Part shown: positions 16,322-40,683 of the stretch, piece by piece | Numbering within the stretch: the first letter of the stretch is position 1 | Layout of the letters: each line of letters begins with the position of its first letter | Assembly (NCBI GenBank): GCA_012518315.1 | Contig: JAAYSL010000031.1 | Span: 1 to 47,727, forward strand | Reading direction: 5' to 3' | DNA from: Bacillota bacterium | GTDB taxonomy: Bacteria > Bacillota > Limnochordia > DTU087 | Length of the DNA: 47,727 nucleotides | Made by a program: the position numbers and the translations under genes | The notes under the pieces: model-generated | The model's input: the letters and a program-made list of their open reading frames with translations, nothing else | What the model was told of the DNA's origin: nothing | The model's database searches: none

Positions 16322-16412
16322 CTAGGACTTTTGCTCCAGACCCTCGAAATTCCGCTATGAATTGGGAAGTTAAGGCAGGAATTCATAAGGGAATGTGGAA
16401 AAGACTACCTGA

Positions 16413-16512
16413 AAGACTATTGCCTAGGGCAAACCCATTGAAAGATGGGGACGCAAAGTCACGGGCCTAAAGCCACAAACAGTGGACATGGTAGCCGGAC
16501 CGCCAATAGACC
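16413..16512 (+). promoter_or_regulatory. Cyclic-di-GMP class I (GEMM-I) riboswitch aptamer
   Basis: The conserved class I pieces occur in order: AGGGCAAACC (16426-16435), a hairpin closed by GAAA (16440-16443), GGGGACGCAAAG (16447-16458), GGGCCTAAAG (16463-16472), a CCAC/GTGG hairpin, then ATGGTAGCCGG (16488-16498). A closing P1 helix can be drawn between CTATTG (16417-16422) and CAATAG (16504-16509). This RNA binds c-di-GMP in many Bacillota, including upstream of flagellar operons in Clostridioides. It is placed about 110 bases before flgB, with its expression platform immediately downstream. I could not define its promoter in the roughly 90 bases after hslU. Confidence 0.93.
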
Positions 16513-16529
16513 GAGAAGAGGTATATGCC

Positions 16530-16575
16530 GGGGTTCGGGTCTAGTGGTTAGAAGACATGACCTGGATCCCGTTTT
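16530..16575 (+). terminator. Riboswitch expression platform: terminator of an OFF switch
   Basis: GGGGTTCGGGTC (16530-16541) pairs with GACCTGGATCCC (16559-16570) over 12 positions, three of them G-U, around a 17-base loop. GTTTTG follows. The left arm also contains GGTCTA (16538-16543), which can pair instead with TAGACC (16507-16512). The latter overlaps the 3' strand of aptamer helix P1 (16504-16509). Ligand-stabilised P1 would therefore block the antiterminator and let the terminator form, so high c-di-GMP should reduce flagellar transcription. The U tract is short (four T). Confidence 0.72.
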
Positions 16576-16622
16576 GCTAGTATCAAGTGTTTGGATTCGT
16601 GTGGGTGAGGGGAGGGATGGTA

Positions 16623-17036
16623 GTGGTTAGACTAGATCTTTTGGGTAGGACAGGCAATTTGTTACATAAATCCTTAGATGCCGAAAGCCTGAGGTTTAAG
16701 GTAAGAGCCGACAATTTCGCCAATGTCAATACACCGGGATATAAGCGGCAGGATGTGGAGTTTGAAACCTTCCTGGCGGCCGAACTAGACAAGAAAAGTG
16801 GGCAAATGGAATTGAGGAAAACCCATACCCGCCATCTAGATGGTAAGGCAACTGGTTCATCTCCCCGGGTTGTGACAGACAATGCTTCTACCATGCGGTA
16901 TGATGGTAACAATGTAGATATGGAGCAGGAGATGGTGGCTCTAACAGAGACTGCTGTGCGCTACCAAGTACTGGCCGAGCAGCTGACGCGGCAGATTAGA
17001 CAGTTAAGGACAGCTATTAGTGAAAGAGTGGGGTAA
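16623..17036 (+). CDS. flgB: Flagellar basal-body rod protein FlgB
   Basis: Proximal rod subunit of the flagellar basal body. The conserved N-terminal block is RFKVRADNFANVNTPGYKRQDVEFE; the C-terminus has NNVDMEQEMVALTETAVRYQ. It is 137 aa from GTG 16623, which has GGAGGG six bases before it; an ATG at 16617 abuts the site and is unlikely. First gene of the flagellar cluster, directly after the c-di-GMP riboswitch, so its expression should be gated by that element. Confidence 0.95.
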   Translation: MVRLDLLGRTGNLLHKSLDAESLRFKVRADNFANVNTPGYKRQDVEFETFLAAELDKKSGQMELRKTHTRHLDGKATGSSPRVVTDNASTMRYDGNNVDMEQEMVALTETAVRYQVLAEQLTRQIRQLRTAISERVG

Positions 17037-17064
17037 CTAGGCCTATTTGACAGGAGGGATTCGA

Positions 17065-17487
17065 TTGAGCATTTTCCATGCTTTCCGCATCAGTGGATCT
17101 GCATTGACTGCTGAGCGGCTGAGAATGGACACTATAGCCAACAACTTGGCAAATGCCAATAGTACCCGCACTGAAGGTGGGGGGCCCTATCAGCGCCAAG
17201 TCCCGGTGTTTGCTGCCCAAGCAGCACAGCAGTCTCTGGGCAATGGTTTTCGAGGAGGCGGGGTACGGGTTGTGGGCATTTATGCTGATCCATCACCACC
17301 TCGATTGGTGTATGAGCCAGAGCACCCGGATGCCAACGAGGAAGGCTATGTGGAGTATCCGAATGTGAGTATTGTCACGGAAATGGTAGATATGATCAGT
17401 GCCACCAGGGCTTATGAGGCGAATATCACCATTCTCAATTCATCGCGGAACATGGCGCAGAAAGCACTGGAGATTGGTCGTGGTTAA
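17065..17487 (+). CDS. flgC: Flagellar basal-body rod protein FlgC
   Basis: Rod subunit next to FlgB. Family parts are FHAFRISGSALTAERLRMDTIANNLANANSTRTEGGGPYQRQ at the start (split here by motif: residues 3-45) and the C-terminal YVEYPNVSIVTEMVDMISA with ATRAYEANI. About 140 aa, the usual size. TTG at 17065 is chosen because AGGAGGG lies seven bases upstream; TTG 17047 has no site. It follows flgB after 28 bases. Confidence 0.95.
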   Translation: MSIFHAFRISGSALTAERLRMDTIANNLANANSTRTEGGGPYQRQVPVFAAQAAQQSLGNGFRGGGVRVVGIYADPSPPRLVYEPEHPDANEEGYVEYPNVSIVTEMVDMISATRAYEANITILNSSRNMAQKALEIGRG

Positions 17488-17553
17488 CCAGATGGAGCCT
17501 GACTTCTAGCGGTGTTAATGTCGAGTCACGTCGAAACACAGAGGTGGACAACC

Positions 17554-17850
17554 ATGAGAGTTTCAACCATAATCAGTCAATCGCCGATTTTCTTGCGGGA
17601 TCTGGCATCTCGTCCGAAAGATGAGGAATTAGCTTTTGCCGGAGCACTAAAGAAAGCACTAGACTCAGTGGACACCCTAGAAAAAGATGCTGAGCGATTG
17701 ACTGAAGCTTTGATTAGAGGAGAACCTTCGGTGGAGATTCATGATGTTGTATTGGCCGCTGAAAAAGCTCGCCTAGCCCTAGACTTGACGGTTTCCATCC
17801 GCAATAAGTTGGTGGAGGCGTATCAAGAGATCATGCGGATGCAGATTTGA
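17554..17850 (+). CDS. fliE: Flagellar hook-basal body protein FliE
   Basis: Small protein joining the MS-ring to the rod and an early export substrate. The family core is FAGALKKALDSVDTLEKDAERL, GEPSVEIHDVVLAAEKARLAL and the C-terminal VRNKLVEAYQEIMRMQI-like ending (here IRNKLVEAYQEIMRMQI). 98 aa, a normal size. ATG 17554 has GAGGTGG six bases upstream; an ATG at 17512 is upstream in frame but lacks a site. The order flgB-flgC-fliE-fliF is the standard one. Confidence 0.94.
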   Translation: MRVSTIISQSPIFLRDLASRPKDEELAFAGALKKALDSVDTLEKDAERLTEALIRGEPSVEIHDVVLAAEKARLALDLTVSIRNKLVEAYQEIMRMQI

Positions 17851-17914
17851 CGCAGCTCATGATGGTCGGCAGTTCCGCTAAATGAGGGCTGCTGGAATAG
17901 GGATGGTGGCGTGT

Positions 17915-19453
17915 GTGAAGGAGTTTTTCTCCAATCTAGAGGAACAGCTGAGCGATATTTGGAGAGGAATGGACAATTCTCGCCGTTGGTTGGTATTGGG
18001 CTTAACGGCGGGAGTCCTCTTTTTCCTCATCTTCGGAATCATACATCTGACAAGGGCAGACTATGTTCCGGTTTTCACCAAGATGCAAGCCGAGGATGCA
18101 GCTGAAGTTGTCTCTTTCCTAAAAGACCAGAGCATACCATACCAGATTGGTCAACAAGGTACCGCCGTTCTGGTTCCCCAAGGGAAGGTTCATGAGGTGA
18201 GGATGCAGCTAGCTAGTGAGGGTCTACCTCGGGGTGGTGTTGTTGGTCTTGAGCTTTGGGATCACACATCATTGACCGAGACGGATTTTGACCGGCGTAT
18301 TCGTCTTCTTAGGGCTCTACAAGGTGAATTAACCCGTACATTAATGGGTCTTGAGGCGATAGAAAACGCCCGGGTACATATAGTCCTGCCCGAAAACAGT
18401 CTTTTCATTGAAGCGCAGAATCCCGCTACTGCATCGGTTTTCTTGGTACTGAAGCAGGGGCGTATTCTGCAGGATAATCAGATTCGCGGTATAGCCCACC
18501 TTGTGGCTAGCAGTGTGGAGGGCTTACTCCCGGAGAATGTGACTATCATAGATAATCGTGGCAACGTACTATCTGATCGTTTGATGGTCAGTTCTGGAGC
18601 GGTCAATAGTGGGCAGATACTACAGCAGCTAGAGATCGAGCACAGCTATGAAACCGCTGTGGAACGCAGTATTCAGGCCATGCTGGAACGAGTCTTTGGC
18701 TTGGGTCGTGTTGTAGTACGGGTAAAGGCTGATCTCGATTTCAACTATGAGGAACTGCGAGAAAAACGCAGTGAGCCTGTGGTGGGTAGTAGAGGCGTAG
18801 TCATCAGTGAGGAAACCCGTAGTGAGACATATCGGGGAACCGGGGGAGGCGGGGTGCCTGGTGTAGCCACTAATGTGCCAGGCTACACATCGCCGGCGGT
18901 GACAGGTGAATCGGAGTATGAGAAGCAAGAAGTAACCCGCAATTACGAGATCAGTGTTAGCGAGAAATACAAGGTGAAACCTCCAGGTGAGGTGCGCAAC
19001 CTATCAGTGGCTGTCTGGGTCGATGGTGAACTCACCGAGGAGCAACGAGAAAGAGTGGTGGCGATGGTCTCCTCTGCTGCTGGACTCCAGCCAGAACGGG
19101 GAGACATAGTGCAGGTGGACAGTATGCCCTTTGCAGTTGAGGCCGCTCCTGCCATGGCTTCTGGTGCCTTAGGTAAGGCAGGGATCTGGGACTGGCGGCT
19201 GTTTTTGCTAGTGGCGATGGTGTTGCTTCTCTTGGTTCTTGTACTAAGGAGAAGAGCAAGACCAGTAGCCCCTGTGGATGAACCCATACCTGCTGTTGAT
19301 GTTTTGTTAGAGGATGAGGAAGAGATTCCAGATAGACCACTTTCACCCGAAGAGGAGCGGCGCCTCCGAGTAAGGCGTGAGATTGAGCGCATGGCAGAGC
19401 AAGATCCAGAGGGTCTGGCACGCTTAGTCAGGGCCTGGATGATGGAGGAATAG
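17915..19453 (+). CDS. fliF: Flagellar M-ring protein FliF
   Basis: Forms the MS-ring on which the export gate and C-ring assemble. From GTG 17915 (512 aa) it begins MKEFFSNLEEQL. Membrane segment 1 covers about residues 24-46, and the YscJ/FliF ring-building domains follow (YVPVFTKMQAEDAAEVVSFL, GLPRGGVVGLELWD, RVHIVLPENSLF). Membrane segment 2 is at about 425-444. The C-terminal tail RREIERMAEQDPEGLARLVR binds FliG. The GTG is preferred because GGTGG lies five bases before it; ATG codons at 17882 and 17903 lack spacing or a site. The periplasmic region carries a low-complexity glycine/threonine loop, as in many homologues. Confidence 0.95.
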   Translation: MKEFFSNLEEQLSDIWRGMDNSRRWLVLGLTAGVLFFLIFGIIHLTRADYVPVFTKMQAEDAAEVVSFLKDQSIPYQIGQQGTAVLVPQGKVHEVRMQLASEGLPRGGVVGLELWDHTSLTETDFDRRIRLLRALQGELTRTLMGLEAIENARVHIVLPENSLFIEAQNPATASVFLVLKQGRILQDNQIRGIAHLVASSVEGLLPENVTIIDNRGNVLSDRLMVSSGAVNSGQILQQLEIEHSYETAVERSIQAMLERVFGLGRVVVRVKADLDFNYEELREKRSEPVVGSRGVVISEETRSETYRGTGGGGVPGVATNVPGYTSPAVTGESEYEKQEVTRNYEISVSEKYKVKPPGEVRNLSVAVWVDGELTEEQRERVVAMVSSAAGLQPERGDIVQVDSMPFAVEAAPAMASGALGKAGIWDWRLFLLVAMVLLLLVLVLRRRARPVAPVDEPIPAVDVLLEDEEEIPDRPLSPEEERRLRVRREIERMAEQDPEGLARLVRAWMMEE

Positions 19454-19538
19454 TGCAGGGCTGTGTCGTGTACGGTGAGGAGGGAAAGGGCAAAACCCTT
19501 CAGGCTTTGCCAAGGGATTAAAGCCCAAAGGTATGTCA

Positions 19539-20546
19539 ATGAGGTTTTCAGATCTAACGGGAAAGCAAAAGGCAGCCATTCTGCTTATCACATTGGGCCC
19601 AGATGTATCTGCCCGGGTGTTTCGCCATCTTAGAGAAGATGAGATTGAGGATCTGACATTGGAGATTGCGGCTTTACCCCGAGTAGAGCCGGAATACAAA
19701 GATGCCATCCTAGGCGAGTTTCACGAGCTTTGTCTCGCCAGTGAGTACATGTCTCAAGGAGGCATCGAATACGCCAAAGAGGTATTGGAAAAGGCCTTGG
19801 GTGCTGAGCGTGCCCATGAAGTTATTACCAGGCTGACAGCATCACTGCAAGTGCGACCTTTTGATTTTGCCCGTAAAGCTGATCCGGGACAACTGCTTAA
19901 CTTCATTCAAAATGAGCACCCACAGACCATTGCTCTAATCATGGCTTATCTGCAGCCAGAACAGGCAGGCATAGTCCTTTCGGCATTGCCAGCAGAAAGA
20001 CAAGCTGATGTTGCCCGGCGGCTAGCTACTTTGGATCGAACCAGTCCCGATGTACTAAGGGAGATTGAGGGTACCTTGGAACGCAAGCTATCTTCCTTTA
20101 TGATTCAGGATTTTACAGCGGCTGGTGGTCTTGAGGCCACAGTAGAGGTTCTCAACCGGGTGGATAGAGTTACGGAAAGAACTATTATGGATACCTTGGA
20201 AGAAGAGGATCCAGAACTAGCCGATGAGATCCGCAAGCGGATGTTCTTGTTTGAGGATATCGTGAAACTTGATGACCGGGCTATCCAACAGGTGATCCGG
20301 GAAGTGGATACTAGAGACTGGGCTCTGGCCTTGAAAACAGCCAGTGAGGAAGTTTCAGGTCGCATCTACAAGAACATGTCCAAACGGGCCGGTGATATGC
20401 TGAGGGAAGACATCGAGTATATGGGCCCTGTGCGGTTACGGGATGTGGAGGAAGCGCAGCAAAGAGTTGTTTCTACGATTCGGCGCCTGGAGGAAACCGG
20501 CGAGATCATTATCTCCCGGGGTGGGGAGGATGAGGTAGTTGTCTAG
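19539..20546 (+). CDS. fliG: Flagellar motor switch protein FliG
   Basis: C-ring protein that contacts MotA and sets rotation direction. The N-domain (LTGKQKAAILLITLGPDVSARVFRHL) binds FliF. The middle domain has the EHPQTIALIMAYLQPEQAG (EHPQR-like) motif. The C-domain contains the charged torque helix (DDRAIQQVIREVDTRDWALAL) and DMLREDIEYMGPVRLRDVEEAQQ. 335 aa. ATG 19539 is favoured over ATG 19533, because AAAGG is seven rather than one base away. The stop overlaps the fliH start by eight bases. Confidence 0.97.
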   Translation: MRFSDLTGKQKAAILLITLGPDVSARVFRHLREDEIEDLTLEIAALPRVEPEYKDAILGEFHELCLASEYMSQGGIEYAKEVLEKALGAERAHEVITRLTASLQVRPFDFARKADPGQLLNFIQNEHPQTIALIMAYLQPEQAGIVLSALPAERQADVARRLATLDRTSPDVLREIEGTLERKLSSFMIQDFTAAGGLEATVEVLNRVDRVTERTIMDTLEEEDPELADEIRKRMFLFEDIVKLDDRAIQQVIREVDTRDWALALKTASEEVSGRIYKNMSKRAGDMLREDIEYMGPVRLRDVEEAQQRVVSTIRRLEETGEIIISRGGEDEVVV

Positions 20547-21336
20547 GATCATTAAGGCGAATTTTCGGCCCGTACTGACCGAAAATGGCTATAGTGAGCG
20601 ACAGATGAATAGGCAAGCATTCCTATCTCCTGAGCCAAATGGCAACCTGGACACTAACCCACGGGCAGCTATTGTTGATGCAGCAACGGTGATTCGTACT
20701 GCCCAAGATCGGGCAGTGAGATTGCTCAATCAGGCAGAGGAGCGGGTGGTGGAGCTGGTTTCGGCAGCAGAAGAACAGACCATCACCATCCAAGAAAAGG
20801 CACGGGAATCCGGCCTTGAGCAGGGTTACAGCCAGGGCTATGAGGATGGCTATGGCGCGGGTCTGGCCGCGGCCAAAGCAGCAGCAAAGGCGGAAATGCA
20901 ACAAGAAATGGCATTGATCAAACAAGTTGCCCGGGAATGTCAGGAGATCCGTAGTCATGCTATTGCTCAGGCAGAACGGGATGTTGTGGTACTGAGCTTG
21001 GCCATTGCCGAGAAAATCATTAAGCAAAAGGTTGAGGAACAGCCCGGGCTTACAGCTAACATAATCAAAGACGTTGCTCGGCGGGTGCAAGGTGAAGCAA
21101 ATGCGGTTATTCGAGTACACCCTACAGTGCTGGAGTCCCTCGGAGAATTGGTCACAGAAGATGAGCTGCCCGCCAATGCCGCGTCAGTCGGATGGGAGTT
21201 GGTGGGGGATGCCAGTGTTGAGCCTGGTGGATGCTTGTTAGAGACTGAATTTGGCAGAGTCGATGCTAGTCTAGAGACTAGATTTCTTAGTGTAAGTGAG
21301 TCTCTGCTCCAGCTACTGGAGGGCGAGGGAATTTGA
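20539..21336 (+). CDS. fliH: Flagellar assembly protein FliH
   Basis: Regulator and stator of the export ATPase FliI. It has an N-terminal variable stretch, a long helix with the GxxxG-like run LEQGYSQGYEDGYGAGLAAA at about residues 95-115, and a C-terminal domain starting VVLSLAIAEKIIKQKV with a VHPTVLESL segment. 265 aa, the usual size. It starts with TTG at 20539 inside the fliG 3' end, with GGAGG upstream, and ends overlapping fliI. Tight overlaps on both sides suggest translational coupling of fliG, fliH and fliI. Confidence 0.92.
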   Translation: MSRIIKANFRPVLTENGYSERQMNRQAFLSPEPNGNLDTNPRAAIVDAATVIRTAQDRAVRLLNQAEERVVELVSAAEEQTITIQEKARESGLEQGYSQGYEDGYGAGLAAAKAAAKAEMQQEMALIKQVARECQEIRSHAIAQAERDVVVLSLAIAEKIIKQKVEEQPGLTANIIKDVARRVQGEANAVIRVHPTVLESLGELVTEDELPANAASVGWELVGDASVEPGGCLLETEFGRVDASLETRFLSVSESLLQLLEGEGI

Positions 21337-22649
21337 AAAGTGGTTTCCCCTTGAAGCGCTACCTAAGAAGGGTTCAGCTCGCTGAGGATGTGAAGGAGTA
21401 TGGAGAGGTTACCCAGGTGATTGGGCTCACCATCGAAGCTAATGGTCCGAGAGCCAACATAGGAGAGATCTGTGAGGTTTTCGCCACCTCTGGAAAAGGG
21501 ATTCCCGCCGAAGTAGTAGGGTTTCGTGATCAGCGCCTGATTCTCATGCCCTTGGGGGACATTTCGGGAGTTGGTCCTGGCAGCCTGGTGCAGGCTGGTC
21601 GGGGAAGGTTAGTTGCTGAAGTAGGCCATAACCTTCTAGGTAGAGTCTTAGATGGCTTGGGAAGTCCCATGGATGGTAAAGGATCCCTTAAAGGTATTGG
21701 TCATTATCCATTGTATAGTCAACCGCCGGAACCACTGGAGCGGCAGCGGATCAAGGAACCTTTATCGGTAGGTGTTAGGGCAATTGACGGCCTGCTCACC
21801 TGTGGTAAGGGACAGCGTATTGGGATTTTTTCCGGTAGCGGTGTGGGCAAGAGTACCTTGCTGGGCATGATGGCTCGCAATACAGCTGCAGACATAAACG
21901 TGATTGCCCTGGTTGGTGAACGGGGCCGTGAAGTAAGGGAGTTTATCGAGCGGGATCTTGGCCAAGATGGTTTGGCCCGCTCAGTGGTGGTAGTAGCCAC
22001 TTCTGATCAGCCTGCTTTGATTCGGTTGAAAGGGGCATACACCGCAACCGCCATCGCTGAGTACTTTCGGGATGAAGGCTATGATGTGCTCTTTATGATG
22101 GATTCGGTTAGCCGATTTGCGGCGGCCCAAAGAGAAGTTGGCCTGGCTGTGGGCGAGCCACCGGCAACCCGTGGGTATCCACCTTCGGTGTTTGCCGTAC
22201 TGCCAAAGCTCCTTGAGCGAACCGGTCCAGGCAAGACAGGTACCATTACGGCTTTCTACACCGTTTTGGTTGAAGGTGATGACCTAAATGAACCAGTTTC
22301 TGATACCGTAAGGGGGATTTTGGATGGCCATATAGTCCTTACTCGGAAACTAGCTGATAGAGGACACTACCCAGCCATTGATGTATTGGCCAGTGTTAGC
22401 CGAGTCATGCCCGAGGTCGTCTCACAGGAGCACCAAAAGGTAGCCATCCAAGTGAAAGAGATGTTGGCCGCGTACCAGGAGATGGAGGATTTAATCAATA
22501 TTGGGGCGTATAGGAGTGGAAGTAATCCCCGGGTAGATCGGGCCATTAGTCTGATGGAACCAATCAGGAGCTATCTTCGGCAAAGTGTCCAGGAAAGGGC
22601 AGCATGGGATGCAGCCCTCACCGGTCTTTTGGAGCTGACAGATGACTGA
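21333..22649 (+). CDS. fliI: Flagellum-specific ATPase FliI
   Basis: ATPase of the flagellar type III export apparatus, related to F1 beta subunits. Walker A GSGVGKST is at residues 168-175; Walker B is VLFMMDSVSRFA. Other signatures are GLLTCGKGQRIGIFSGSG, GERGREVREFIE and the family stretch GEPPATRGYPPSVFA. 438 aa, standard. It starts TTG at 21333 in a TTGA overlap with the fliH stop. Acts with FliH and FliJ, which flank it. Confidence 0.97.
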   Translation: MKSGFPLKRYLRRVQLAEDVKEYGEVTQVIGLTIEANGPRANIGEICEVFATSGKGIPAEVVGFRDQRLILMPLGDISGVGPGSLVQAGRGRLVAEVGHNLLGRVLDGLGSPMDGKGSLKGIGHYPLYSQPPEPLERQRIKEPLSVGVRAIDGLLTCGKGQRIGIFSGSGVGKSTLLGMMARNTAADINVIALVGERGREVREFIERDLGQDGLARSVVVVATSDQPALIRLKGAYTATAIAEYFRDEGYDVLFMMDSVSRFAAAQREVGLAVGEPPATRGYPPSVFAVLPKLLERTGPGKTGTITAFYTVLVEGDDLNEPVSDTVRGILDGHIVLTRKLADRGHYPAIDVLASVSRVMPEVVSQEHQKVAIQVKEMLAAYQEMEDLINIGAYRSGSNPRVDRAISLMEPIRSYLRQSVQERAAWDAALTGLLELTDD

Positions 22650-22681
22650 TTGGTGACTAAGCGATTACAGGAGGACAGGGT

Positions 22682-23140
22682 TTGAGCTCGCATTTCCAGT
22701 TTAGTCTTCAGAGAGTACTCGAACTGCGGGAGCGCCTGGAAGAGCAGGCCGCTCAGGAACTTGGACACCTTCAGTCCTTGGAAATCGACGCCAGAAGGAC
22801 ACTTGCTCTACAGGACAGCCAGCGCGGACAACAGCTGAGTGCCTGGCGGGAGATAAGTCAAGGAGTATTGGATATTGGCGAGCTGGAGACTTATCAGCGC
22901 TACTTGGAGTTGCTTGATCAAGAGATAAACCAGCAGCGTGCTCTAGTCCAGGAGCTTGAGGCCTCGGTAAGACAGCAGACTGAAAAGTACTTGGCTGCCC
23001 GGCGCAAGCGTGAAATGCTGGAAAAGCTCAAGGAAAAGGAATATGCCGAGTATCACCGAGAGCTGTTGGGTAAAGAACAGCGAGAGCTAGATGATATAGC
23101 GGCCACAAGATTTATGCAGCGGGAGGCACCTTCCTCGTGA
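22682..23140 (+). CDS. fliJ: Flagellar export protein FliJ
   Basis: Coiled-coil stalk-like protein of the export ATPase complex. The N-terminus FQFSLQRVLELRERLEEQAA is characteristic, and the whole 152-aa chain is charged helix with heptads and no globular domain. TTG 22682 has AGGAGG seven bases upstream. It overlaps the start of the next gene by four bases. The family is poorly conserved; position after fliI and the helical pattern make the call. Confidence 0.9.
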   Translation: MSSHFQFSLQRVLELRERLEEQAAQELGHLQSLEIDARRTLALQDSQRGQQLSAWREISQGVLDIGELETYQRYLELLDQEINQQRALVQELEASVRQQTEKYLAARRKREMLEKLKEKEYAEYHRELLGKEQRELDDIAATRFMQREAPSS

Positions 23141-23715
23141 AAAGATGGATTCTTGCAATCTTAATATTACTTATGGCGATAGTCTCGGCTGCCATCATGC
23201 TGCAGGCCACTGGAGTCATTAATCTTAAGCCAATGGCGATCCAACGCATGGAAGCTATGCCGGCATTAGCTCCCCATCTACAGATATATCGAGTGGGACT
23301 TGCAGCTAGGCAGGAAATTGAGGAAATGGAAGCAAAGATTGACAGGGAAAAGGGAGAACTGATCCAACGGGAGCTAGAATTGGATACCAGGGCGGAAGCT
23401 CTGACAGCCAAAGAAAATGAGTTAGCGAGATCCCGAAGTGAATTTGAGCAAGAAAAAGAGGAACTAGTCAAGCTAAAGCAAGAGATAGATGCGGCTCGGG
23501 AAGGGTTTTTGGAGCTTGACCGGCTGCGAGCCATTTACTCAGAGATGAAAGGCAAGGATGCCGCCAAGATCATGAGTCAGCTCCGCCCAGAGATGGTGGC
23601 TTTCCTCTTGGCGGAGATGGATCCAGAGGTAGCGGGAGATATTCTCAGCAACCTTGATCCGAAAACGGCGGCGGAGATCACCCGTATGGCCCTGACTAAC
23701 AAGAAATTGCCTTGA
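23137..23715 (+). CDS. MotE/YlxF-like flagellar protein with MgtE_N-type C-terminal domain
   Basis: A 192-aa protein with one N-terminal membrane segment (about residues 5-27), a long coiled coil (about 60-130) and a C-terminal MgtE-N-like helical domain (MKGKDAAKIMSQLRPEMVAF, then MDPEVAGDILSNLDPKTAAEI). This architecture matches YlxF of Bacillus and MotE of alphaproteobacteria, the latter a chaperone of the stator protein MotC. The gene starts with GTG overlapping the fliJ stop. Its position between fliJ and fliK is the same as ylxF. Its exact role in Bacillota is not settled; it may guide stator or hook assembly. Confidence 0.85.
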   Translation: MKRWILAILILLMAIVSAAIMLQATGVINLKPMAIQRMEAMPALAPHLQIYRVGLAARQEIEEMEAKIDREKGELIQRELELDTRAEALTAKENELARSRSEFEQEKEELVKLKQEIDAAREGFLELDRLRAIYSEMKGKDAAKIMSQLRPEMVAFLLAEMDPEVAGDILSNLDPKTAAEITRMALTNKKLP

Positions 23716-23790
23716 CAGCAAGGGTACTAGACCCTTGATGGATAAGAGTAAGGCACAGACTAATGTGCCCGGAAGGGAGGTGATGAAAAG

Positions 23791-26028
23791 ATGCTAGCAG
23801 ATTTGGCGGTGAAGCCTAGCTTACAATCTCAGAATGAAGCTATGCTACCAAAGCAGCCAAGTTTGGGGGAAGGTGCACGTGGCGAAATCGTGTCCTTCAG
23901 TGCTGAGCTGGGAGAGGCCATGGGGTCAGGCAAGGGCTTGGCCAGAAGTGAATTGTCCGAGGGCCGGGAGAAATCCACGGTGACCGATAAGTCAGCTGCC
24001 CAGTGGAAGGATGACGAAGCCAGGCAAACGAGGCTCCGCCGGGCGAATAGCTTGGGTTATATCGAGCACCCGATCCCTCTAGGGATAATCGGCCAGCTAG
24101 CCAATGTGGTGGATCCCAATAGTAGTCTAGAAATGCTACTAACACAGGGCAAAGAACAGCTCGATGGTATGGGAGTGTCGGTGGCGCCGGAAACCCAACT
24201 TGGTAAGACAGAGCAGAGGGACGCTGTGGGAATGTGGGGCAATGAGGCAACTCAGATAGTGGTTGATGATGAGGAAACAAGATGTGTTCCAGATATGGAT
24301 GTGACTTTAACTGGAGACGATGCTTTGTCTCTACCCGGGCATCTCGCAGGTGCTGCAGATTGGGCAGTCTCACAAGCTGTGGGGACATTGAAGAACCCTA
24401 TTGGAGAAGCTGGGATCTCGACTAGTGGTGATGGGGATGCCATTAGAAGCTATACCGCGGAAAGAGTCATCACCGGCTTTCCTCTGCCGATAGGTTCCAC
24501 AGCAGACTTAGCGATAGGCTCGGTGCTGGAGGAAGACGCTCTCTTGGCCTTGCTACAAGAAGACCGGGACCCGCTGCAGACCAAGACGGATGATGGGACA
24601 GACTCCCATACCAACGGTGACATTGGGCTAGGTAGATCGTCTTTGCTTTCCCCAAAGGTAAGCCCAGCACCCTGGGGCCCGTTCATGGGAAAAGCTGGCG
24701 ATTCAAGACAATCTGGCAGACCTGTGGGGAGAGCAGGAGATGATGTAGACTTGCTTTCTACCCTATTGGGGCAAGATGCGGCACAGGAAGAAAGCCTAGC
24801 TGTCATCCCAAATCATTCGGAGCATCCAGGTGGGGCAGGTCTTGATGCACGGAAGGCCGTGAGCTTAGACAGAACTCAGGTCGAGGAGTGGCTACTTATC
24901 GACAAAGCAATGGTGGAGACCATTCCATCAGGAACGCCTTCACTTGAGGACGATGCCGTCATGTCGCGATTTACTTCCTACCAGTATGGACCAGAAGGTG
25001 GCTCAGGGAACTTGACCTTAGGGGTAGCTGCTAATGAGCCGGCTCGGGATGACTTAGGGCCTGGTGGCCAGGATGGTACCAGTGACGAGGTAGCCCTAGG
25101 GAGTATGAGAGAATCTGCATCCGTGGAACCAAAGGTGGTAGTAGGACAACACTTTGATGTCACAACCGAAGAGTTAGCAGCTCCTCTACAGCAGCAGGGA
25201 AGCCTTGAGGAGGTGGCTGGAATCCAGGCGAAGAACGAGAAGTCAAGGCCTACAGAGACCAGCTCGGAACCAAATCAGGGTTTGTCATCGTTGGCTTTTC
25301 GCCAGATACGTGTTTCAGTTGCTCCAAAGGGGGAACAGGACAACACCCAGGGTGAAGCACATGCCTTTGAGAATGGCTCAAACATGGCAGAACCAAATGA
25401 AGTGCAGTCAGGTCATGAAGTGACAGAGCTCACGCAGTTCCAGACTGCAGGTTTAGAGCGAACAGAGGGTACACCTGAGAAGACAAAGGATGCAACCTTC
25501 AATACCAAAGAAGTGACGCGGCTAGAAACCCTTTTGGGAACGTCTTTAGAGCAGTCGCCTTTGGTAGAGGAGGCAGGACGAGGACGCCCTAGCCCTAGTG
25601 TTCCTGTGACTGTTAGGCAAGTTGTGGATCAGATCGTCCAGAAGGTTGAGCTAGAGATGAAGGGTGAGTATGGAGAGATCCGCCTGCAGCTAAAGCCAGA
25701 GCACTTGGGAGAACTAGAGATTAAGATCGCCACCAACAATGGGGTAGTATCAGCGGCATTCTTAGCTGAGAGCAAAACGGTAAAGGGGCTAATCGAGGCA
25801 GGTTTACCCCACTTAAAACAGCAACTCATGCAGCAAGGCCTGAATATCCAGGATGTGTCAGTAGAGGTAGGTGGAGGCAATTCCCATGGGAGACAGTCAT
25901 ACACCGGAAGTGCAGATTCCAACTTATCCGGTGCCTGGTACCAGGGTGGTGCCGGTACTGATACTGTAGGTGTAACTGCCCGGCCGCAGCAATCCCTGTG
26001 GGGAAGCACCATCGATTACAGGGCATAG
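23791..26028 (+). CDS. fliK: Flagellar hook-length control protein FliK
   Basis: Secreted molecular ruler that also switches export specificity. The C-terminal Flg_hook domain at roughly residues 610-700 is recognised by EIRLQLKPEHLGELEIKI, then GVVSAAFLAESKTVKGLIEA and LPHLKQQLMQQGLNIQDVSV. The preceding ~600 residues are low-complexity, rich in Asp, Glu, Gly and Ser, as expected of a stretched ruler, and are not conserved. At 745 aa it is longer than the common 400-500 aa. ATG 23791 follows an almost perfect GGGAGGTGAT site. Length may reflect hook length; that is inference. Confidence 0.9.
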   Translation: MLADLAVKPSLQSQNEAMLPKQPSLGEGARGEIVSFSAELGEAMGSGKGLARSELSEGREKSTVTDKSAAQWKDDEARQTRLRRANSLGYIEHPIPLGIIGQLANVVDPNSSLEMLLTQGKEQLDGMGVSVAPETQLGKTEQRDAVGMWGNEATQIVVDDEETRCVPDMDVTLTGDDALSLPGHLAGAADWAVSQAVGTLKNPIGEAGISTSGDGDAIRSYTAERVITGFPLPIGSTADLAIGSVLEEDALLALLQEDRDPLQTKTDDGTDSHTNGDIGLGRSSLLSPKVSPAPWGPFMGKAGDSRQSGRPVGRAGDDVDLLSTLLGQDAAQEESLAVIPNHSEHPGGAGLDARKAVSLDRTQVEEWLLIDKAMVETIPSGTPSLEDDAVMSRFTSYQYGPEGGSGNLTLGVAANEPARDDLGPGGQDGTSDEVALGSMRESASVEPKVVVGQHFDVTTEELAAPLQQQGSLEEVAGIQAKNEKSRPTETSSEPNQGLSSLAFRQIRVSVAPKGEQDNTQGEAHAFENGSNMAEPNEVQSGHEVTELTQFQTAGLERTEGTPEKTKDATFNTKEVTRLETLLGTSLEQSPLVEEAGRGRPSPSVPVTVRQVVDQIVQKVELEMKGEYGEIRLQLKPEHLGELEIKIATNNGVVSAAFLAESKTVKGLIEAGLPHLKQQLMQQGLNIQDVSVEVGGGNSHGRQSYTGSADSNLSGAWYQGGAGTDTVGVTARPQQSLWGSTIDYRA

Positions 26029-26045
26029 ACTTAGGAGGTGAAGTA

Positions 26046-26474
26046 ATGTATGTAGCGAAGGCTGGTACATCACAGTACTATGGCGATGAGGTTAAGACAG
26101 CAACGGAACGCAATCAACTGGACAAGCATGATTTCCTAAGACTTCTGACCACACAGCTGAAGCATCAAGATCCTATGAACCCTATTAAGGATCAGGACTT
26201 TATCGCTCAATTGGCTCAGTTTACTGCATTAGAGCAGACTCAAAACCTTGCTCAGGTCATGGAGAAGTTCGTAACGAATCAAGAGCGTATGGGGCTCGTG
26301 GGCCAGGCAACTAGCCTTCTAGGCAAGGAGGTAGTAGTGATTAACTCCGACACCAACGAGGTGGCCCAGGGGTTGGTAAGTGCCATTCAATTCGCCGATG
26401 GGATGCCGCAACTGTATGTAAATGGAAAAGCCTATTTCCTCTGGGAGGTACAGGCCATCCAAACAGCAAGCTAA
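26046..26474 (+). CDS. flgD: Flagellar hook assembly protein FlgD (short form)
   Basis: Scaffold cap for hook growth. The conserved FlgD N-domain is visible as LDKHDFLRLLTTQLKHQDPMNP followed by FIAQLAQFTALEQ (split motif; residues 25-67). About 142 aa: the C-terminal FlgD Ig-like/Tudor part of proteobacterial proteins is absent or reduced to one small barrel (LLGKEVVVINSDTNEVAQG), as is common in Bacillota. ATG 26046 has AGGAGGTGA upstream; the frame is open 48 bases earlier inside fliK but with no site. Confidence 0.93.
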   Translation: MYVAKAGTSQYYGDEVKTATERNQLDKHDFLRLLTTQLKHQDPMNPIKDQDFIAQLAQFTALEQTQNLAQVMEKFVTNQERMGLVGQATSLLGKEVVVINSDTNEVAQGLVSAIQFADGMPQLYVNGKAYFLWEVQAIQTAS

Positions 26475-26506
26475 TGAGAACCATTGGGTGAAGGAAGGTG
26501 ATTGCC

Positions 26507-26899
26507 TTGACTGACAAGATACCGGGACTTAGGATACCAATCTCACCGCAACCCGTCACAGAACGACGGGCAGGGCAAGTTGCTCGCAAGCAAGTGGATA
26601 GCCCCGCATTTCAGGAGGTTCTCCAGCGAGAGCTAGCATCTTCCAAGCTGAAGTTCTCCGCTCACGCGGAAGCAAGACTCCGACTCCGCAGTGTTGAGCT
26701 AGGTGAGCAGCAGCTGGCCAAGCTAGAAGAGGCTGTGGAGAAAGCGGCAGCTAAAGGTGCCCGGGAATCTTTGATCGTGATGGAAGGCAATGTGTTTGTG
26801 GTAAGTGTAAGAAACCGCACAGTGATCACGGTAGTTGACCGAGCTTCAGCTAAAGAAAACGTGTTTACCCAGATTGATAGTGCGGTGTTGACAGATTGA
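26507..26899 (+). CDS. Flagellar operon protein, TIGR02530 (flg_new) type
   Basis: A roughly 130-aa protein matching the conserved flagellar-operon family TIGR02530. Its mark is FSAHAEARLRLRSVELGEQQ followed by LEEAVEKAAAKGARESLIVM and VSVRNRTVITVVDRA. Members sit between flgD and flgE in Bacillota. Function is unknown; a role in hook assembly is guessed from position. TTG 26507 is preferred, with GGAAGGTG six bases before it; GTG 26498 lies within that site. Confidence 0.83.
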   Translation: MTDKIPGLRIPISPQPVTERRAGQVARKQVDSPAFQEVLQRELASSKLKFSAHAEARLRLRSVELGEQQLAKLEEAVEKAAAKGARESLIVMEGNVFVVSVRNRTVITVVDRASAKENVFTQIDSAVLTD

Positions 26900-26918
26900 A
26901 TCAATCATTGTGATTAAC

Positions 26919-27004
26919 CATCCCGGGGAAAAGTGAAGGGGCTGGACCGGAGGGAGGCCTCTAGGGACTGTGGAACGATGGAAGCAGTTCCTACCCGGGG
27001 GATG
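26919..27004 (+). other. Structured intergenic element before flgE
   Basis: A long-range helix closes this 86-base stretch: CATCCC (26919-26924) pairs with GGGATG (26999-27004), continuing after a two-base bulge as GGG (26925-26927) with CCC (26994-26996). Inside, GGGACTG (26964-26970) pairs with CAGTTCC (26985-26991), seven positions with one G-U. It ends just before the flgE ribosome binding site. It does not fit any riboswitch I recognise. Confidence 0.4.
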
Positions 27005-27023
27005 AAAAGGAGTTGAGAGAGCC

Positions 27024-28565
27024 ATGATGCGATCCCTCTTTTCCGGTGTATCGGCTTTAAAGAATCACCAAGTTAGGATGGATGTTATTGGCAACAACAT
27101 TGCCAATGTGAATACTATCGGATTTAAGAGTAGTCGTGTCACCTTTAGGGATATCTTGAGCCAAACATTACAGGCTGCCAGTAGCCCTCAAGGGGGCAGG
27201 GGGGGCACAAACCCCATGCAAATTGGACTCGGTATGGCGCTTGGTGCCATTGAGACAGACCACACCCAAGGAAGTCCGGAAGTGACCGGTAGACAGACAG
27301 ACATGTCCATCGAGGGTAATGGGTTTTTCATTCTATCCGATGGACCCCGTCGGTTTTACACCAGGGCCGGTCTGTTTGGTGTAGATCGGGATGGAACTCT
27401 AATCAGCAGTGTCAATGACATGAAAGTCATGGGTTGGCCAGCAGTTAACGGTGTCATCGACACCAATAGGGATATAGGGACTTTGGAGATTCCCATGGGA
27501 AAGACTATTAACCCCATACCTACGACTACAGTCAAATTCGGAGGCAATCTGGATTCTAGGATGAAGGGTTTGTGGGAGCTGTCCAAGTCGGAGATTACGG
27601 TTGGTGGCGAGAAGTTTTCGGTGGAGATCACGGAAGGAGCCGACTTTGGTGAATGGACGCTTACTATCACATCCCAGACGGATCCTACACAAACAGGTTC
27701 AGTGACCCTGTCCTATGAGGATGATGGAAGCGGTAATCTGGTTTTGCAATCAGACTCTCAGACACTAGCAGTTGGTACACCAGGGGTTAGTTTTGATATA
27801 GAGGATGTGGTCGGTACTCCGACCACTGCTGGTGGATTGTCCATAAGAGAGACCGGGACTACGGGAACTCCGCTATCCACGGCCACACTCCAACCACCCC
27901 AAGTGACTCAAACAGTCGATGTCTTTGACTCTTTGGGCAATACCCATTCAGTCAATTTCGTCTTCACCAAGATCGATGTTGGCAATGACACCAGTACATG
28001 GAAGTGGGAAGCAAAAGGTGGCGGTGAAGAGACCAGTGGTGAAGTTACCTTCGATGCTAAAGGTAATCTAGTTAGCGTTTCTGGTGCACCTTTGCATTTT
28101 GAGCCCGCAGGGGCAAACCCAGTGGAGATTATGCCAGATTTCGCCGCTGTGGTGCAGAATGCCTCGGAGGGGACCTTGGTCTTTAAGAGCCAGGATGGGT
28201 ATCCCCAGGGGACGCTAATCGATTATAGTGTTGATGAATCTGGGATCATCATCGGAGAGTACTCCAATGGGTTAACTGAGAACTTGGGCCAGATTGCTAC
28301 CGCTGTTTTCAGTAACCCGGTGGGGCTATTGCGGGCAGGGGATACTACCTTTGTGGTATCGGCTAACTCAGGAGAACCGGAGGTGGGGCAGCCTGGCAGG
28401 GGTGCTAATGGGAAAGTCACTCCGGGGTCTTTGGAGATGAGCAACGTGGATCTGTCCCAACAGTTCACCGACATGATCATTACCCAAAGAGGGTTTCAGG
28501 CTAACTCTCGGATTATCACAACATCAGATGAGATGCTGCAGGAGCTGGTAAATCTGAAGCGTTAG
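27024..28565 (+). CDS. flgE: Flagellar hook protein FlgE
   Basis: Structural subunit of the flagellar hook. The N-terminal rod-like motif is LFSGVSALKNHQVRMDVIGN followed by NIANVNTIGFKSSRVTFRD. The domain with GNGFFILSDG is present. Two variable central domains lead to VNFVFTKIDVGNDTSTWKW, then GEVTFDAKGNL. The C-terminal helix reads SNVDLSQQFTDMIITQRGFQ and NSRIITTSDEMLQELVNLKR. 513 aa. The start is one of two adjacent ATGs (27024 or 27027) after AAAGGAG. The small flbD gene that usually follows flgE in Bacillota is not found downstream. Confidence 0.95.
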   Translation: MMRSLFSGVSALKNHQVRMDVIGNNIANVNTIGFKSSRVTFRDILSQTLQAASSPQGGRGGTNPMQIGLGMALGAIETDHTQGSPEVTGRQTDMSIEGNGFFILSDGPRRFYTRAGLFGVDRDGTLISSVNDMKVMGWPAVNGVIDTNRDIGTLEIPMGKTINPIPTTTVKFGGNLDSRMKGLWELSKSEITVGGEKFSVEITEGADFGEWTLTITSQTDPTQTGSVTLSYEDDGSGNLVLQSDSQTLAVGTPGVSFDIEDVVGTPTTAGGLSIRETGTTGTPLSTATLQPPQVTQTVDVFDSLGNTHSVNFVFTKIDVGNDTSTWKWEAKGGGEETSGEVTFDAKGNLVSVSGAPLHFEPAGANPVEIMPDFAAVVQNASEGTLVFKSQDGYPQGTLIDYSVDESGIIIGEYSNGLTENLGQIATAVFSNPVGLLRAGDTTFVVSANSGEPEVGQPGRGANGKVTPGSLEMSNVDLSQQFTDMIITQRGFQANSRIITTSDEMLQELVNLKR

Positions 28566-28598
28566 TGTATTGTCACAGCACGCCAGAGAATTTGGTCA

Positions 28599-28625
28599 TA
28601 GGGAGGGTTTAAATCTCCCTCCCTA
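28599..28625 (+). other. Perfect hairpin between flgE and motA (no U tract)
   Basis: TAGGGAGGG at 28599-28607 pairs with CCCTCCCTA at 28617-28625 around a nine-base loop. No run of T follows, so it is not a standard terminator. It may be a processing or stability element or a weak pause. Confidence 0.5.
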
Positions 28626-28653
28626 GGCCACCTTTAGTCGATAGTTAAGGGGC

Positions 28654-28682
28654 GTGTCATCATTGGCGGGGTATGATGTCAC
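28654..28682 (+). repeat. Imperfect palindrome upstream of motA
   Basis: GTGTCATCAT (28654-28663) and ATGATGTCAC (28673-28682) are inverted with one mismatch across a nine-base G-rich spacer. It lies about 55 bases before the motA start and might be an operator or a second RNA hairpin. Confidence 0.4.
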
Positions 28683-28737
28683 AAGGCTCCGCGTTAGGGA
28701 AGGGGGCATGGGCGGTGTTTAGATCCGTCCACAGGTT

Positions 28738-29562
28738 ATGGATCTAGCAACAGTCATAGGGATCGTTTCAGGAATTACTCTCTTGGTGGCCGCCATTGCA
28801 GCAGATGGAACCCTACGAGGTTTTTGGGATGTGCCATCTCTTCTCGTAGTATTTGGTGGCACGATAGCCGCTACCTTAGTCAATCATTCGCTTCCGGAAA
28901 TATCCAGAGTGTTTGGTATGGTGAGAGTAGCTTTTACGCAACGGAGCTATTCGGGCAGAGAGTTGATTGATCAGTTAGTAGCTTTGGCAGAGAAGGCCCG
29001 GCGGGAAGGGCTTTTGGCAATGGAAGAGGAGGCTGCACAGATTGAAGATAGCTTCCTTAGAAAGGGTATTCAACTTATCGTTGATGGCACCGATCCGGAT
29101 CTGGTGAGAAGTGTGCTAGAGATCGAACTGGCCTTTCAAGAAGAACGCCACCGGGCAGGCCAGGCCATCTTTGAAGACATGGGGGCATATGCCCCGGCAT
29201 TTGGTATGATTGGTACATTGATTGGCCTGATCAACATGCTAGCCGATATCGACGACGCCGAGAAAATCGCTCCGGGTATGGCTTTGGCCTTGATCACTAC
29301 TTTGTATGGTTCGGTTCTAGCTAATTTGGTGTTCTTGCCTATAGCGGGGAAACTTCGTAGCCGTAGTGATGAAGAGGTGTTGTACCGACAGATCATGTTA
29401 GAGGGCATCTTGTCAATCCAAGCTGGCGAGAATCCACGGTTAGTAGAAGAGAAGTTAACAGCCTTCTTGCCTCCACAACAGCGGAATAGGACACAGATGC
29501 CAACAGAAGAGGAAGACGCGGCAGGCCGGATGCAGGCACGGACGGTGAGATCGAATGTCTAG
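28738..29562 (+). CDS. motA: Flagellar motor stator protein MotA
   Basis: Proton- or sodium-conducting stator subunit. Four membrane helices are expected: about residues 3-22 and 32-50 at the N-terminus, then two late helices. The late helices include GAYAPAFGMIGTLIGLINML and GMALALITTLYGSVLANLVF. The MotA/TolQ/ExbB signature and the cytoplasmic charged loop (RRGLLAMEEEA-like, here REGLLAMEEEAAQIED) that meets FliG are present. 274 aa. It overlaps motB by eight bases. The ribosome binding site is weak, and a hairpin and a palindrome lie just upstream. Confidence 0.95.
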   Translation: MDLATVIGIVSGITLLVAAIAADGTLRGFWDVPSLLVVFGGTIAATLVNHSLPEISRVFGMVRVAFTQRSYSGRELIDQLVALAEKARREGLLAMEEEAAQIEDSFLRKGIQLIVDGTDPDLVRSVLEIELAFQEERHRAGQAIFEDMGAYAPAFGMIGTLIGLINMLADIDDAEKIAPGMALALITTLYGSVLANLVFLPIAGKLRSRSDEEVLYRQIMLEGILSIQAGENPRLVEEKLTAFLPPQQRNRTQMPTEEEDAAGRMQARTVRSNV

Positions 29563-30361
29563 CTATAGGCGCAAACCAAGACCAAAGCGTGGTGCCCCCG
29601 CGTGGATGACAACTTATGCAGATATGGTAACTCTGCTTCTGACTTTCTTTGTGCTTTTGTACTCTTTCTCCACCGTCGATGTACAGAAATTCAGGGCAAT
29701 TATCGCGGCGTTTCAAGGTACCCTAGGTGTTCTTGATGGCGGGAAAACAATTAGCACAGTGCCTGCTGTCAATGAAGGAACGTTGGATCTTGATACTGCT
29801 TTTGATATATCGCAAAAAGAGATCCAACAGATACAAGCTTTGTATGAGGAAGTCCAGTCTTTGATCGCGGAAGGCCAACTACCGGGTACCGTTGAGCTTA
29901 TTACAGAAGAGCGGGGCCTTGTGGTACGGTTTGCGGATCGGGCGTTTTTCGATCTTGGCAAAGCAGATATACGGGCAGATGCTTTACCCGTGCTGGAACA
30001 GGTCGCGGAGATTCTCAGGCCACTGCCTAATCATGTGCGGGTGGAGGGTCACACTGATAATCTACCCATCAAAACTGAACGATTTCCCTCTAATTGGGAG
30101 TTGTCTACTGCACGGGCAACTAACGTAATCCGATTCTTGATTGAAGAGGCTCATCTTGATCCAGAGCGGCTTTCTGCGGCGGGGTATGGTGAATACCGTC
30201 CCATCGACACTAATGAGACTATAGCTGGGAAAGCTCGCAATCGGAGAGTCGATCTAGTCATCCTGCGCTTGGGGCTCATTCATGCTGAACCACAGGCTCC
30301 CAAGGCAGGTGCCGGGGAGGCGGAAGCCGTGCCGGAAAAGAGTCAGGCGCCGATAGTTTAG
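29555..30361 (+). CDS. motB: Flagellar motor stator protein MotB
   Basis: Stator partner of MotA that anchors to peptidoglycan. The single membrane helix with the ion-binding aspartate is seen as TTYADMVTLLLTFFVLLYSF (Asp23). The plug region follows, and the C-terminal OmpA-like domain has VRVEGHTDNLPIKTERFPSN, WELSTARATNVIRFL and GKARNRRVDLVIL. 268 aa. ATG 29555 is inside the motA 3' end. Confidence 0.96.
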   Translation: MSSYRRKPRPKRGAPAWMTTYADMVTLLLTFFVLLYSFSTVDVQKFRAIIAAFQGTLGVLDGGKTISTVPAVNEGTLDLDTAFDISQKEIQQIQALYEEVQSLIAEGQLPGTVELITEERGLVVRFADRAFFDLGKADIRADALPVLEQVAEILRPLPNHVRVEGHTDNLPIKTERFPSNWELSTARATNVIRFLIEEAHLDPERLSAAGYGEYRPIDTNETIAGKARNRRVDLVILRLGLIHAEPQAPKAGAGEAEAVPEKSQAPIV

Positions 30362-30400
30362 CTAGCTTTAGCGTATTTTCTTATTGAGAGGATGTCCAGA

Positions 30401-30868
30401 GTGGCGGGGAAATTCGAGCTAGATCTTAAGGTTATCATTATGGCGGTGGCTCTTGTGATCATTGCTGCTGTGGGCAGTGCGTATATAACTTTCCTGGTCT
30501 TTTCCCGATCAACACCGGGTGTAGCAGCAGTAGCACAGGAGCAGGCCACCAGGAGCGAATTCGGGCCAGTACATAAGGTGGGAGAATTCACAGTCAATTT
30601 GATGGTTCCCCAGGGGTTCTCAACCAAATTCGTGCGCACCGGCTTAGTAGTAGAGGTGACCGATAAGAAATGTATTACTGAGCTACAGCGCAGAGACCCA
30701 CAGATCCGGGATGTGGTGATTAGTATCTTGAGGACAAAGACACAGGAGGACATCCAAGGGGCAGCAGGCATGGAAAGACTGCGCCTGGAACTGAGTAGTG
30801 CTATCTCGAGTCTTCTTTCCGAGGGTGATGTAGCCAATGTCTATTTCACCGAATTGGTAGTGCAATAG
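30401..30868 (+). CDS. fliL: Flagellar basal body-associated protein FliL
   Basis: Membrane protein around the stator that stabilises or activates it. One N-terminal membrane helix (VIIMAVALVIIAAVGSAYIT) precedes an extracytoplasmic domain of the FliL family (VGEFTVNLMVPQGFSTKFVR, RDPQIRDVVISILRTKTQED). About 155 aa from GTG 30401, which has GAGAGG nine bases upstream; ATG 30392 abuts that site. Stands between motB and the switch gene as usual. Confidence 0.92.
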   Translation: MAGKFELDLKVIIMAVALVIIAAVGSAYITFLVFSRSTPGVAAVAQEQATRSEFGPVHKVGEFTVNLMVPQGFSTKFVRTGLVVEVTDKKCITELQRRDPQIRDVVISILRTKTQEDIQGAAGMERLRLELSSAISSLLSEGDVANVYFTELVVQ

Positions 30869-30883
30869 ACGGGGGTGTAAACC

Positions 30884-31891
30884 ATGGTCAGATCGGCACT
30901 AGTGCAACCCGGTAGTGGGGATCATTTGAGAGTCTCCGAGGCCGTGATGCCTAATCACGATATTGCTGTTTTTAACGAACTGGCTAAGGCAGTCACTATG
31001 GCGGCTGAGCCTTGGCTAAGGGAGGCTTTGCGTCGAGAAGTTCTCGCTGATACTTCGGCACTGCGTTTTACAAAGGCTACTAGGGAAGATGACAAGCCTC
31101 AGCCGGTTCAATTATGGCGCACAGAGCTAGTGGGTGATATCGATGAAGTGCTGCTTTTGCAGGTACCTGAGGCCCATGCCCGTTATCTGGCAGGAGGCCA
31201 GGTTTCCGATGAAGCCAAGACCGCACTCACATCTGTTATGGCCGGATGGACTAGGGTCTGTCTGGCAACAGTTGCCCGGCTTGTAGACTGGCAGATAGAC
31301 ACCCACACTGTTTACCTGGAAGAGGCCTCGAAACTGCCCAAAGTAGAGCTGCCCTGGGGAGAACAAGAGGTAATTGCTATTCTTACCTGTGGATGGACCT
31401 TTGTCGATGGTGGTGTGATTTTTCTGGAGTACTGGATGCCAGTGGACTTGGTGCGGAGGATTGCCCAACGTCTGTGCCGGGTGGAAAAACGAGAACCTGG
31501 TGCTCCCCGCAGCTTGCGAGAGGGTGTGGTGCGCACCTACAGGCCGGAAAAAGCCGGTCGAACTGGTTATGCTCCGGTATTGCCGGTGGAGTTCCCACAG
31601 ATTCAGGAAACAGCAGCTGTCAGTGATGGCAACAAGATGGAGCTAGTCAAGGATGTAGTCCTTAGCATACAGGCAGAGTTGGCAAAAACAGAGCTTGAGA
31701 TCGGAGAACTCTTGCAGCTTAAGATCGGAGATGTAGTGAAGCTCGGTAAAATGGCTGGTGAGCCCATGGAGTTATCCCTGAATGGTCACTACATTGCCCG
31801 GGGTGAAGTGTTGGTTCTCGATGACCGTTTAGGTATCCGTATTAGTGAGATTATTAGTGCGGCCGATCGACTTGAGCGTGTCCAGGGATAA
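30884..31891 (+). CDS. fliN: Divergent flagellar motor switch protein with C-terminal SPOA (FliN/FliM) domain
   Basis: A 335-aa C-ring component at the place normally held by fliM plus fliN/fliY. Residues 256-324 form an SPOA domain (VLSIQAELAKTELEIGELLQ, KIGDVVKLGKMAGEPMELSL, GHYIARGEVLVLDDRLGIRI). Residues 85-200 resemble the CheC-like middle domain of FliM/FliY (LLLQVPEAHARYLAGG, VIAILTCGWTFVDGGVIFLE, MPVDLVRRIAQRL) but lack the E/N phosphatase residues. The N-terminal EIDALL CheY-binding motif of FliM and FliY is missing. It is probably a fused or reduced FliM/FliY-like protein; FliN is the nearest clear name for its C-terminus. No other fliM or fliN occurs in the cluster. Confidence 0.75.
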   Translation: MVRSALVQPGSGDHLRVSEAVMPNHDIAVFNELAKAVTMAAEPWLREALRREVLADTSALRFTKATREDDKPQPVQLWRTELVGDIDEVLLLQVPEAHARYLAGGQVSDEAKTALTSVMAGWTRVCLATVARLVDWQIDTHTVYLEEASKLPKVELPWGEQEVIAILTCGWTFVDGGVIFLEYWMPVDLVRRIAQRLCRVEKREPGAPRSLREGVVRTYRPEKAGRTGYAPVLPVEFPQIQETAAVSDGNKMELVKDVVLSIQAELAKTELEIGELLQLKIGDVVKLGKMAGEPMELSLNGHYIARGEVLVLDDRLGIRISEIISAADRLERVQG

Positions 31892-31905
31892 GGTGGTGTG
31901 GCAAG

Positions 31906-33067: not shown

Positions 33068-33104
33068 ATGCAGTAGGATAGAGGGATAATGGGAGGGTTC
33101 ATTC

Positions 33105-33374: not shown

Positions 33375-33384
33375 GGTGTTGGCT

Positions 33385-34158: not shown

Positions 34159-34177
34159 TCCAGTGGAGCGGGTACCA

Positions 34178-35275: not shown

Positions 35276-35300
35276 AAGGCATTGGAAGGGAGGACATTAA

Positions 35301-39480: not shown

Positions 39481-39541
39481 AACTCGTGAGGACGAACTAG
39501 ATTTAGTAGCGGTGCTCGGGTGACTGCCAGGGAGGGTGATG

Positions 39542-40330: not shown

Positions 40331-40354
40331 TATGCGAAGAAAGGGTGGGCGGCC

Positions 40355-40672: not shown

Positions 40673-40683
40673 GGGTGCGAGGG

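Follow-up and report, generated by a model that had tools for sequence, protein, structure and literature searches.

A probable class I c-di-GMP OFF attenuator behind a SigH-type promoter at the flgB-fliA operon of a Limnochordia bacterium

The closest described system is Cd1 of Clostridioides difficile, a class I c-di-GMP riboswitch that works as an OFF switch before the 29-gene flgB operon, in which sigD is included (PMC11477304, PMC5386303). Cd1 acts by early termination, with a product of 160 nt, and an invertible flagellar switch comes after it in a leader of ~500 nt (PMC5386303, PMC6366702, PMC11477304). The flgB start of C. difficile has been assigned to a SigA promoter, and SigH represses the flagellar genes in this organism (PMC5386303, PMC7438776).

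The window analyzed here, a stretch of 47,727 nt from contig JAAYSL010000031.1 of a Bacillota bacterium (Limnochordia), shows a comparable arrangement, and its features are collected in Table 1. The genome is a MAG of 281 contigs, 97.7% complete and with 3% contamination. As in Cd1, the precedent from Clostridioides that an earlier note on this DNA had in mind, a class I aptamer is located before flgB and would switch the operon off by early termination, predicted here at about 165 nt. Both operons are large, early and carry the gene of the flagellar sigma factor. However, the promoter is of the SigH type here and not a SigA promoter, and flgB follows about 50 nt after the terminator. The riboswitch itself is a further case of the Cd1-like kind; the new part is the SigH-type promoter directly upstream, and the open-access literature that was searched gave no description of such a promoter combined with a c-di-GMP attenuator at flgB. 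Taken as a whole, it is very probable that the locus consists of a SigH-type promoter and a class I c-di-GMP OFF attenuator before flgB-fliA. The aptamer, the alternative helices, their conservation and the promoter boxes are the computed part of this explanation.

Table 1. Features of the flgB leader and the operon behind it, in positions of the window.
Feature	Positions	Strand	Details and basis
SigH-type promoter	16375..16403	+	-35 box GCAGGAATT 16375-16383, 11-nt spacer, -10 box GTGGAAAAG 16395-16403
Class I c-di-GMP aptamer	16417..16509	+	RF01051 74.2 bits; RF03167 64 bits; alignment of relatives
Antiterminator	16502..16548	+	Constrained folding; duplex versus shuffles; equivalent pairing in other genera
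Intrinsic terminator	16529..16575	+	Stem 16529-16541/16559-16571, then UUUU 16572-16575
flgB	16587..17036	+	Flg_bb_rod domain; start probably GTG 16623 behind GGGGAGGG 16609-16616
Rest of putative operon	17047..41097	+	Pfam and NCBIfam

Concerning the genes downstream, flgB is followed by flgC, fliE, fliF, fliG, fliH, fliI, fliJ, a gene for a FliG_M/MgtE_N-domain protein, fliK and flgD, then by a TIGR02530 gene, flgE, motA, motB, fliL, fliM, fliO, fliP, fliQ, fliR, flhB and flhA, and at last by flhF, flhG, fliA, one orf and the gene of a DUF6115 protein. These are 28 same-strand ORFs, close to the "about 27 genes including fliA" estimated in the earlier note, with fliA as the 26th (39536-40330); rpsB begins at 41257, after a gap of 159 nt. 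The gaps inside the operon are mostly short (the longest, 172 nt, precedes motA) and promoter-like matches inside it stay at chance level. A single long transcript from flgB to the DUF6115 gene would be expected. Regarding c-di-GMP turnover, the genome gave five matches to GGDEF proteins, and EAL domains were not found in it.

The earlier note began its reading at the riboswitch, which is real, and overlooked the SigH-type promoter at the head of the leader. SigH promoters follow the consensus RNAGGAWWW, a spacer of N11/12 and RNNGAATWW. The boxes of the window fit it except for G instead of W at the last base and A instead of T in GAAT, which leaves the -10 box GTGGAAAAG without the consensus T. 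The predicted transcription start lies at about 16409-16411, ~7 nt before the first helix of the aptamer (P1), and the -10 box ends 13 nt before P1. Ten family leaders are of sufficient length to show the element. In their alignment two boxes, GNAGGAAT and GTGGAA, stand at a fixed distance from each other upstream of the aptamer; the boxes and their 11-nt spacing are invariant in all 10, and no other part of this upstream stretch is as conserved. The strict SigH pattern matches once in the window (0.02 expected by chance) and eight times in the genome (0 in the backward control), and six of these eight matches, among them those at the flgB leader and at a second SigH-like sigma gene, are outside any long ORF and 0-186 nt before one.

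The same element was searched for in 80 flgC loci (L093-L172). It was found upstream of flgB with the 11-nt spacing in 42 of them, compared with 0.93 for shuffles and a single case on the opposite strand; other spacings gave 0-5 loci, a sharp optimum at 11 nt. These 42 loci occur with or, mostly, without a riboswitch, include Negativicutes and Fervidicola/Thermovorax, and form at least 8 groups, a lower bound only because coding sequence enters into the blast clusters of the upstream regions. The textbook SigH targets spo0A and spoIIAA were chosen as control genes because SpoVG is absent from the genomes of the organism and its relatives. Among the relatives, the element with a spacing of 11-12 nt precedes spo0A in 22 of 30 loci and spoIIAA in 12 of 29 (shuffles at 11 nt: 0.14 and 0.12, respectively). 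SigH is encoded in the genome (TIGR02859 equivalog, 377 bits; NF006148, 400 bits). Moreover, the element resembles the SigH promoters listed for C. difficile in having AGGAWWW, a spacer of about 11 nt (exactly 11 in fdhF) and GAA(T), although the flgB start was assigned to SigA there (PMC7438776, Table 3). The identity of the sigma factor rests on the boxes, their spacing and the control genes, from which use of the promoter by SigH is predicted.

It is unlikely that the boxes are no promoter and that the leader comes from hslU read-through or from an unrecognized SigA promoter. The hslU gene, which ends at 16321, is co-directional with the leader and no terminator is evident between it and the aptamer, which speaks for read-through, but this leaves aside the conservation of the boxes at their fixed spacing, their position 13 nt before P1 and their sharp recurrence at flgB loci. 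No SigA promoter was matched upstream of the leader, the sole nearby consensus match being inside flgB (16876) and at chance level; SigD matches in the window are at chance level too. At loci with a riboswitch the aptamer comes after the SigH-type element, which is found about 610-840 nt upstream of flgC; at loci without one the element is mostly about 440-580 nt upstream. This looks as though the riboswitch had been inserted between promoter and operon. One locus (L147) is an exception, where the element is found between the riboswitch terminator and flgB and the riboswitch would therefore be bypassed.

A second SigH-like sigma gene is present in the same genome (C212:18604-19185, 250 bits to TIGR02859, below the cut-off). 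A SigH-type element directly upstream of it (C212:18464-18490) suggests that this sigma factor may regulate itself.

Behind the SigH-type promoter, the leader can form three helices that share strands. P1 consists of CTATTG 16417-16422 and CAATAG 16504-16509, six exact pairs at the positions given in the earlier note. The terminator proposed there (16530-16541/16559-16570) is also correct and gains the pair C16529-G16571, which results in a 13-pair stem of -22.4 kcal/mol with TTTT directly after it. The U-tract is short, only four U, and none of 400 dinucleotide shuffles of 16510-16622 gave a hairpin with TTTT as stable as this one. The terminator and its U-tract are conserved in the family, and in 11 family members 5 of 15 pairs are changed on both sides (reached in 4 of 500 shuffles), with a covariation score of 0.255 against 0.185 in shuffles (observed score reached by 0 of 500). 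The antiterminator first proposed (16507-16512/16538-16543) is the core of a helix about twice as long. Constrained folding gives 13 pairs (16502-16505/16545-16548, 16507-16512/16538-16543 and 16513-16515/16534-16536), interrupted by an A16506/G16544 mismatch and a bulged G16537. This helix holds the entire P1 3' strand together with the pocket base C92 and uses 7 of the 13 bases of the terminator 5' arm, and the duplex that the P1 3' strand forms with the terminator hairpin is better than 500 of 500 hairpin shuffles and 95.6% of the P1-strand shuffles. Both constrained folding and the duplex comparison bear out the mutual exclusion of the three helices.

An equivalent pairing exists in other genera (G001, G004, G007 and G009). 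The duplex is reached by 0 to 2% of hairpin shuffles in genera g1, g2, g5 and g6; with the longer spacers of g3 and g4 it was not better than nearly all hairpin shuffles. An antiterminator that excludes both P1 and the terminator, as in the window, could not be recovered for G002, G003 and G006, three members of the family whose spacer differs. The terminator of two genomes (G023 and G034, f10) is another one, and there the P1 strand shows complementarity to its loop and 3' arm, which looks like the same exclusion in another construction.

In a plain MFE fold P1 is missing and AAGAC is paired with the U-tract, and for this reason constrained ensembles of transcripts of growing length were folded. 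With 3' ends from 16548 to 16566 the antiterminator state is ahead of the P1 state by 5-8 kcal/mol (-47.1 versus -39.4 kcal/mol at 16548; -50.7 versus -45.3 kcal/mol at 16566). At 16572 the terminator state (-57.7 kcal/mol) is better than the antiterminator (-50.9 kcal/mol) by ~7 kcal/mol. The ligand-free default is therefore the antiterminator until the terminator 3' arm is made. Even without ligand the terminator is still the more stable of the two at equilibrium, which requires kinetic control of the switch and may make it leaky.

A platform of another kind on a real class I aptamer, be it translational, an ON switch or non-functional like some class I switches of C. difficile and Bacillus, seems quite improbable. 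The regulatory direction cannot always be extrapolated (PMC6366702), and Bc1 of B. thuringiensis showed no c-di-GMP response in vitro or in vivo (PMC11218506). Nevertheless, the P1 3' strand is part of the very helix that is incompatible with the terminator, and OFF logic follows from this; the flgB Shine-Dalgarno pairs only locally and not with the aptamer, which makes a translational mode unlikely; and the terminator with its U-tract is conserved with covariation. Energies, shuffles and covariation agree in supporting a class I transcriptional OFF switch before flgB, as the earlier note had proposed, and the covariance match, the pocket and the family-wide conservation add to this support.

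Regarding the ligand, the earlier note had named a covariance search as a check of its class I c-di-GMP assignment. The search of the whole 2.7-Mb genome matched RF01051 (c-di-GMP-I) at 16418-16507 with an E-value of 1e-14 and 74.2 bits, far above the cut-off of 35 bits, and the pocket is intact. The Rfam alignment shows the three-helix junction P1/P2/P3 with the GAAA tetraloop of P2 at 16440-16443, and P1 pairing is kept despite unrelated sequence in four relatives (G042, G060, G014 and G023). The numbering takes G14-C93 as the top P1 pair (PMC3764141); G14 is 16422, and the contact bases are therefore G20 (16428), A47 (16455) and C92 (16503), with a G20-A47 distance of 27, equal to that of Bc1 (PMC11218506). 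In fold, tetraloop and pocket the aptamer resembles Vc2 and the other GEMM-I aptamers, and its pocket is, as judged from these bases, canonical as in Vc2; the difference lies in the platform, where the P1 3' strand would pair directly with the terminator 5' arm and loop. The ligand is expected to be c-di-GMP. An A at position 20 marks the c-AMP-GMP (GEMM-Ib) riboswitches, the Geobacter variants, and position 20 is G here, which rejects that identity. It is very improbable that the aptamer is a c-di-GMP-I-GGC riboswitch, a variant that might bind a ligand other than c-di-GMP. RF03167 does exceed its gathering score (59 bits) here and is the only family in the cmscan clan output, apparently through a comparison of E-values within the clan, but it scores below its sister family RF01051 on this stretch. 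Moreover, it has G47 in its consensus (GACGCGAAG), where A47 (GACGCAAAG) is read in the window and in the other flgB leaders of a 12-sequence alignment. In the GGTTCGGGTCTAGTGG stretch ARAGORN found neither a tRNA nor anything tRNA-like.

The only other class I aptamer of this genome (L001 452-552, contig C137, minus strand) lies before a small gene for a Flp/Tad-type pilin and is conserved in the family; a strong terminator, CCCGTTTGC...GCAAACGGG TTTTT, separates it from the pilin gene. Tandem class I aptamers occur in eight family members (L072, L079, L080, L081, L084, L087, L089 and L091), where a conserved secreted protein is encoded downstream of them, near Wzz-like genes; they were not found in the assembly studied here. 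A terminator follows the first aptamer of each pair and the P1 3' strand of the second runs into the Shine-Dalgarno (GCCAAAGGAGG), which looks like a double OFF switch, transcriptional and translational. Further class I aptamers with short platforms are present in G002 (L075), G003 (L076 and L077) and G006 (L082); in G003, one precedes a CheW-like gene (L076) and the other an unnamed long ORF (L077).

At the flgB-leader position upstream of flgC, RF01051 matches in 11 of 11 family members, whose agreement is not independent because they are related. Seven more genomes of the same class carry the aptamer there (G014, G023, G026, G034, G038, G042 and G060), and it was not found at this place in the rest of the 61 relatives. 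G060 has the same leader as a record named Limnochordia (L107), which assigns the window to this class. In the named records the aptamer is present in 17 of the 80 flgC loci, one of them (L143) with a partial match at the locus end, and the carriers include Moorella mulderi, M. stamsii, Limnochordia, Halobacteroidaceae and Thermoanaerobacterales MAGs.

According to the proposed mechanism, the SigH-type promoter would start a short leader whose 5' end is the canonical class I aptamer. At low c-di-GMP, the P1 3' strand would pair with the 5' arm and loop of the nascent terminator, and with this 13-pair antiterminator formed RNA polymerase could read into flgB-fliA. When c-di-GMP is high, ligand binding by the aptamer would lock P1, no antiterminator would form and the 13-pair terminator would fold, with termination, both in vitro and in vivo, expected about 165 nt from the start. 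SigH would have to be active and c-di-GMP low before the flagella and the sigma factor FliA are made.

These findings would extend the flgB switch of C. difficile to other classes of Bacillota with the same OFF logic. On balance, with modest confidence, we favor a broader picture in which SigH starts the early flagellar operon in a large part of Bacillota (Limnochordia, Moorella, Fervidicola/Thermovorax and some Negativicutes), and several lineages carry a c-di-GMP OFF riboswitch with a lineage-specific platform between promoter and flgB, a gate of SigH AND-NOT c-di-GMP. Flagellar synthesis would thereby be placed under the sigma factor of the transition phase and of sporulation entry, the reverse of what has been reported for C. 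difficile, and the control of the entire flagellar cassette could be read from about 200 bp.
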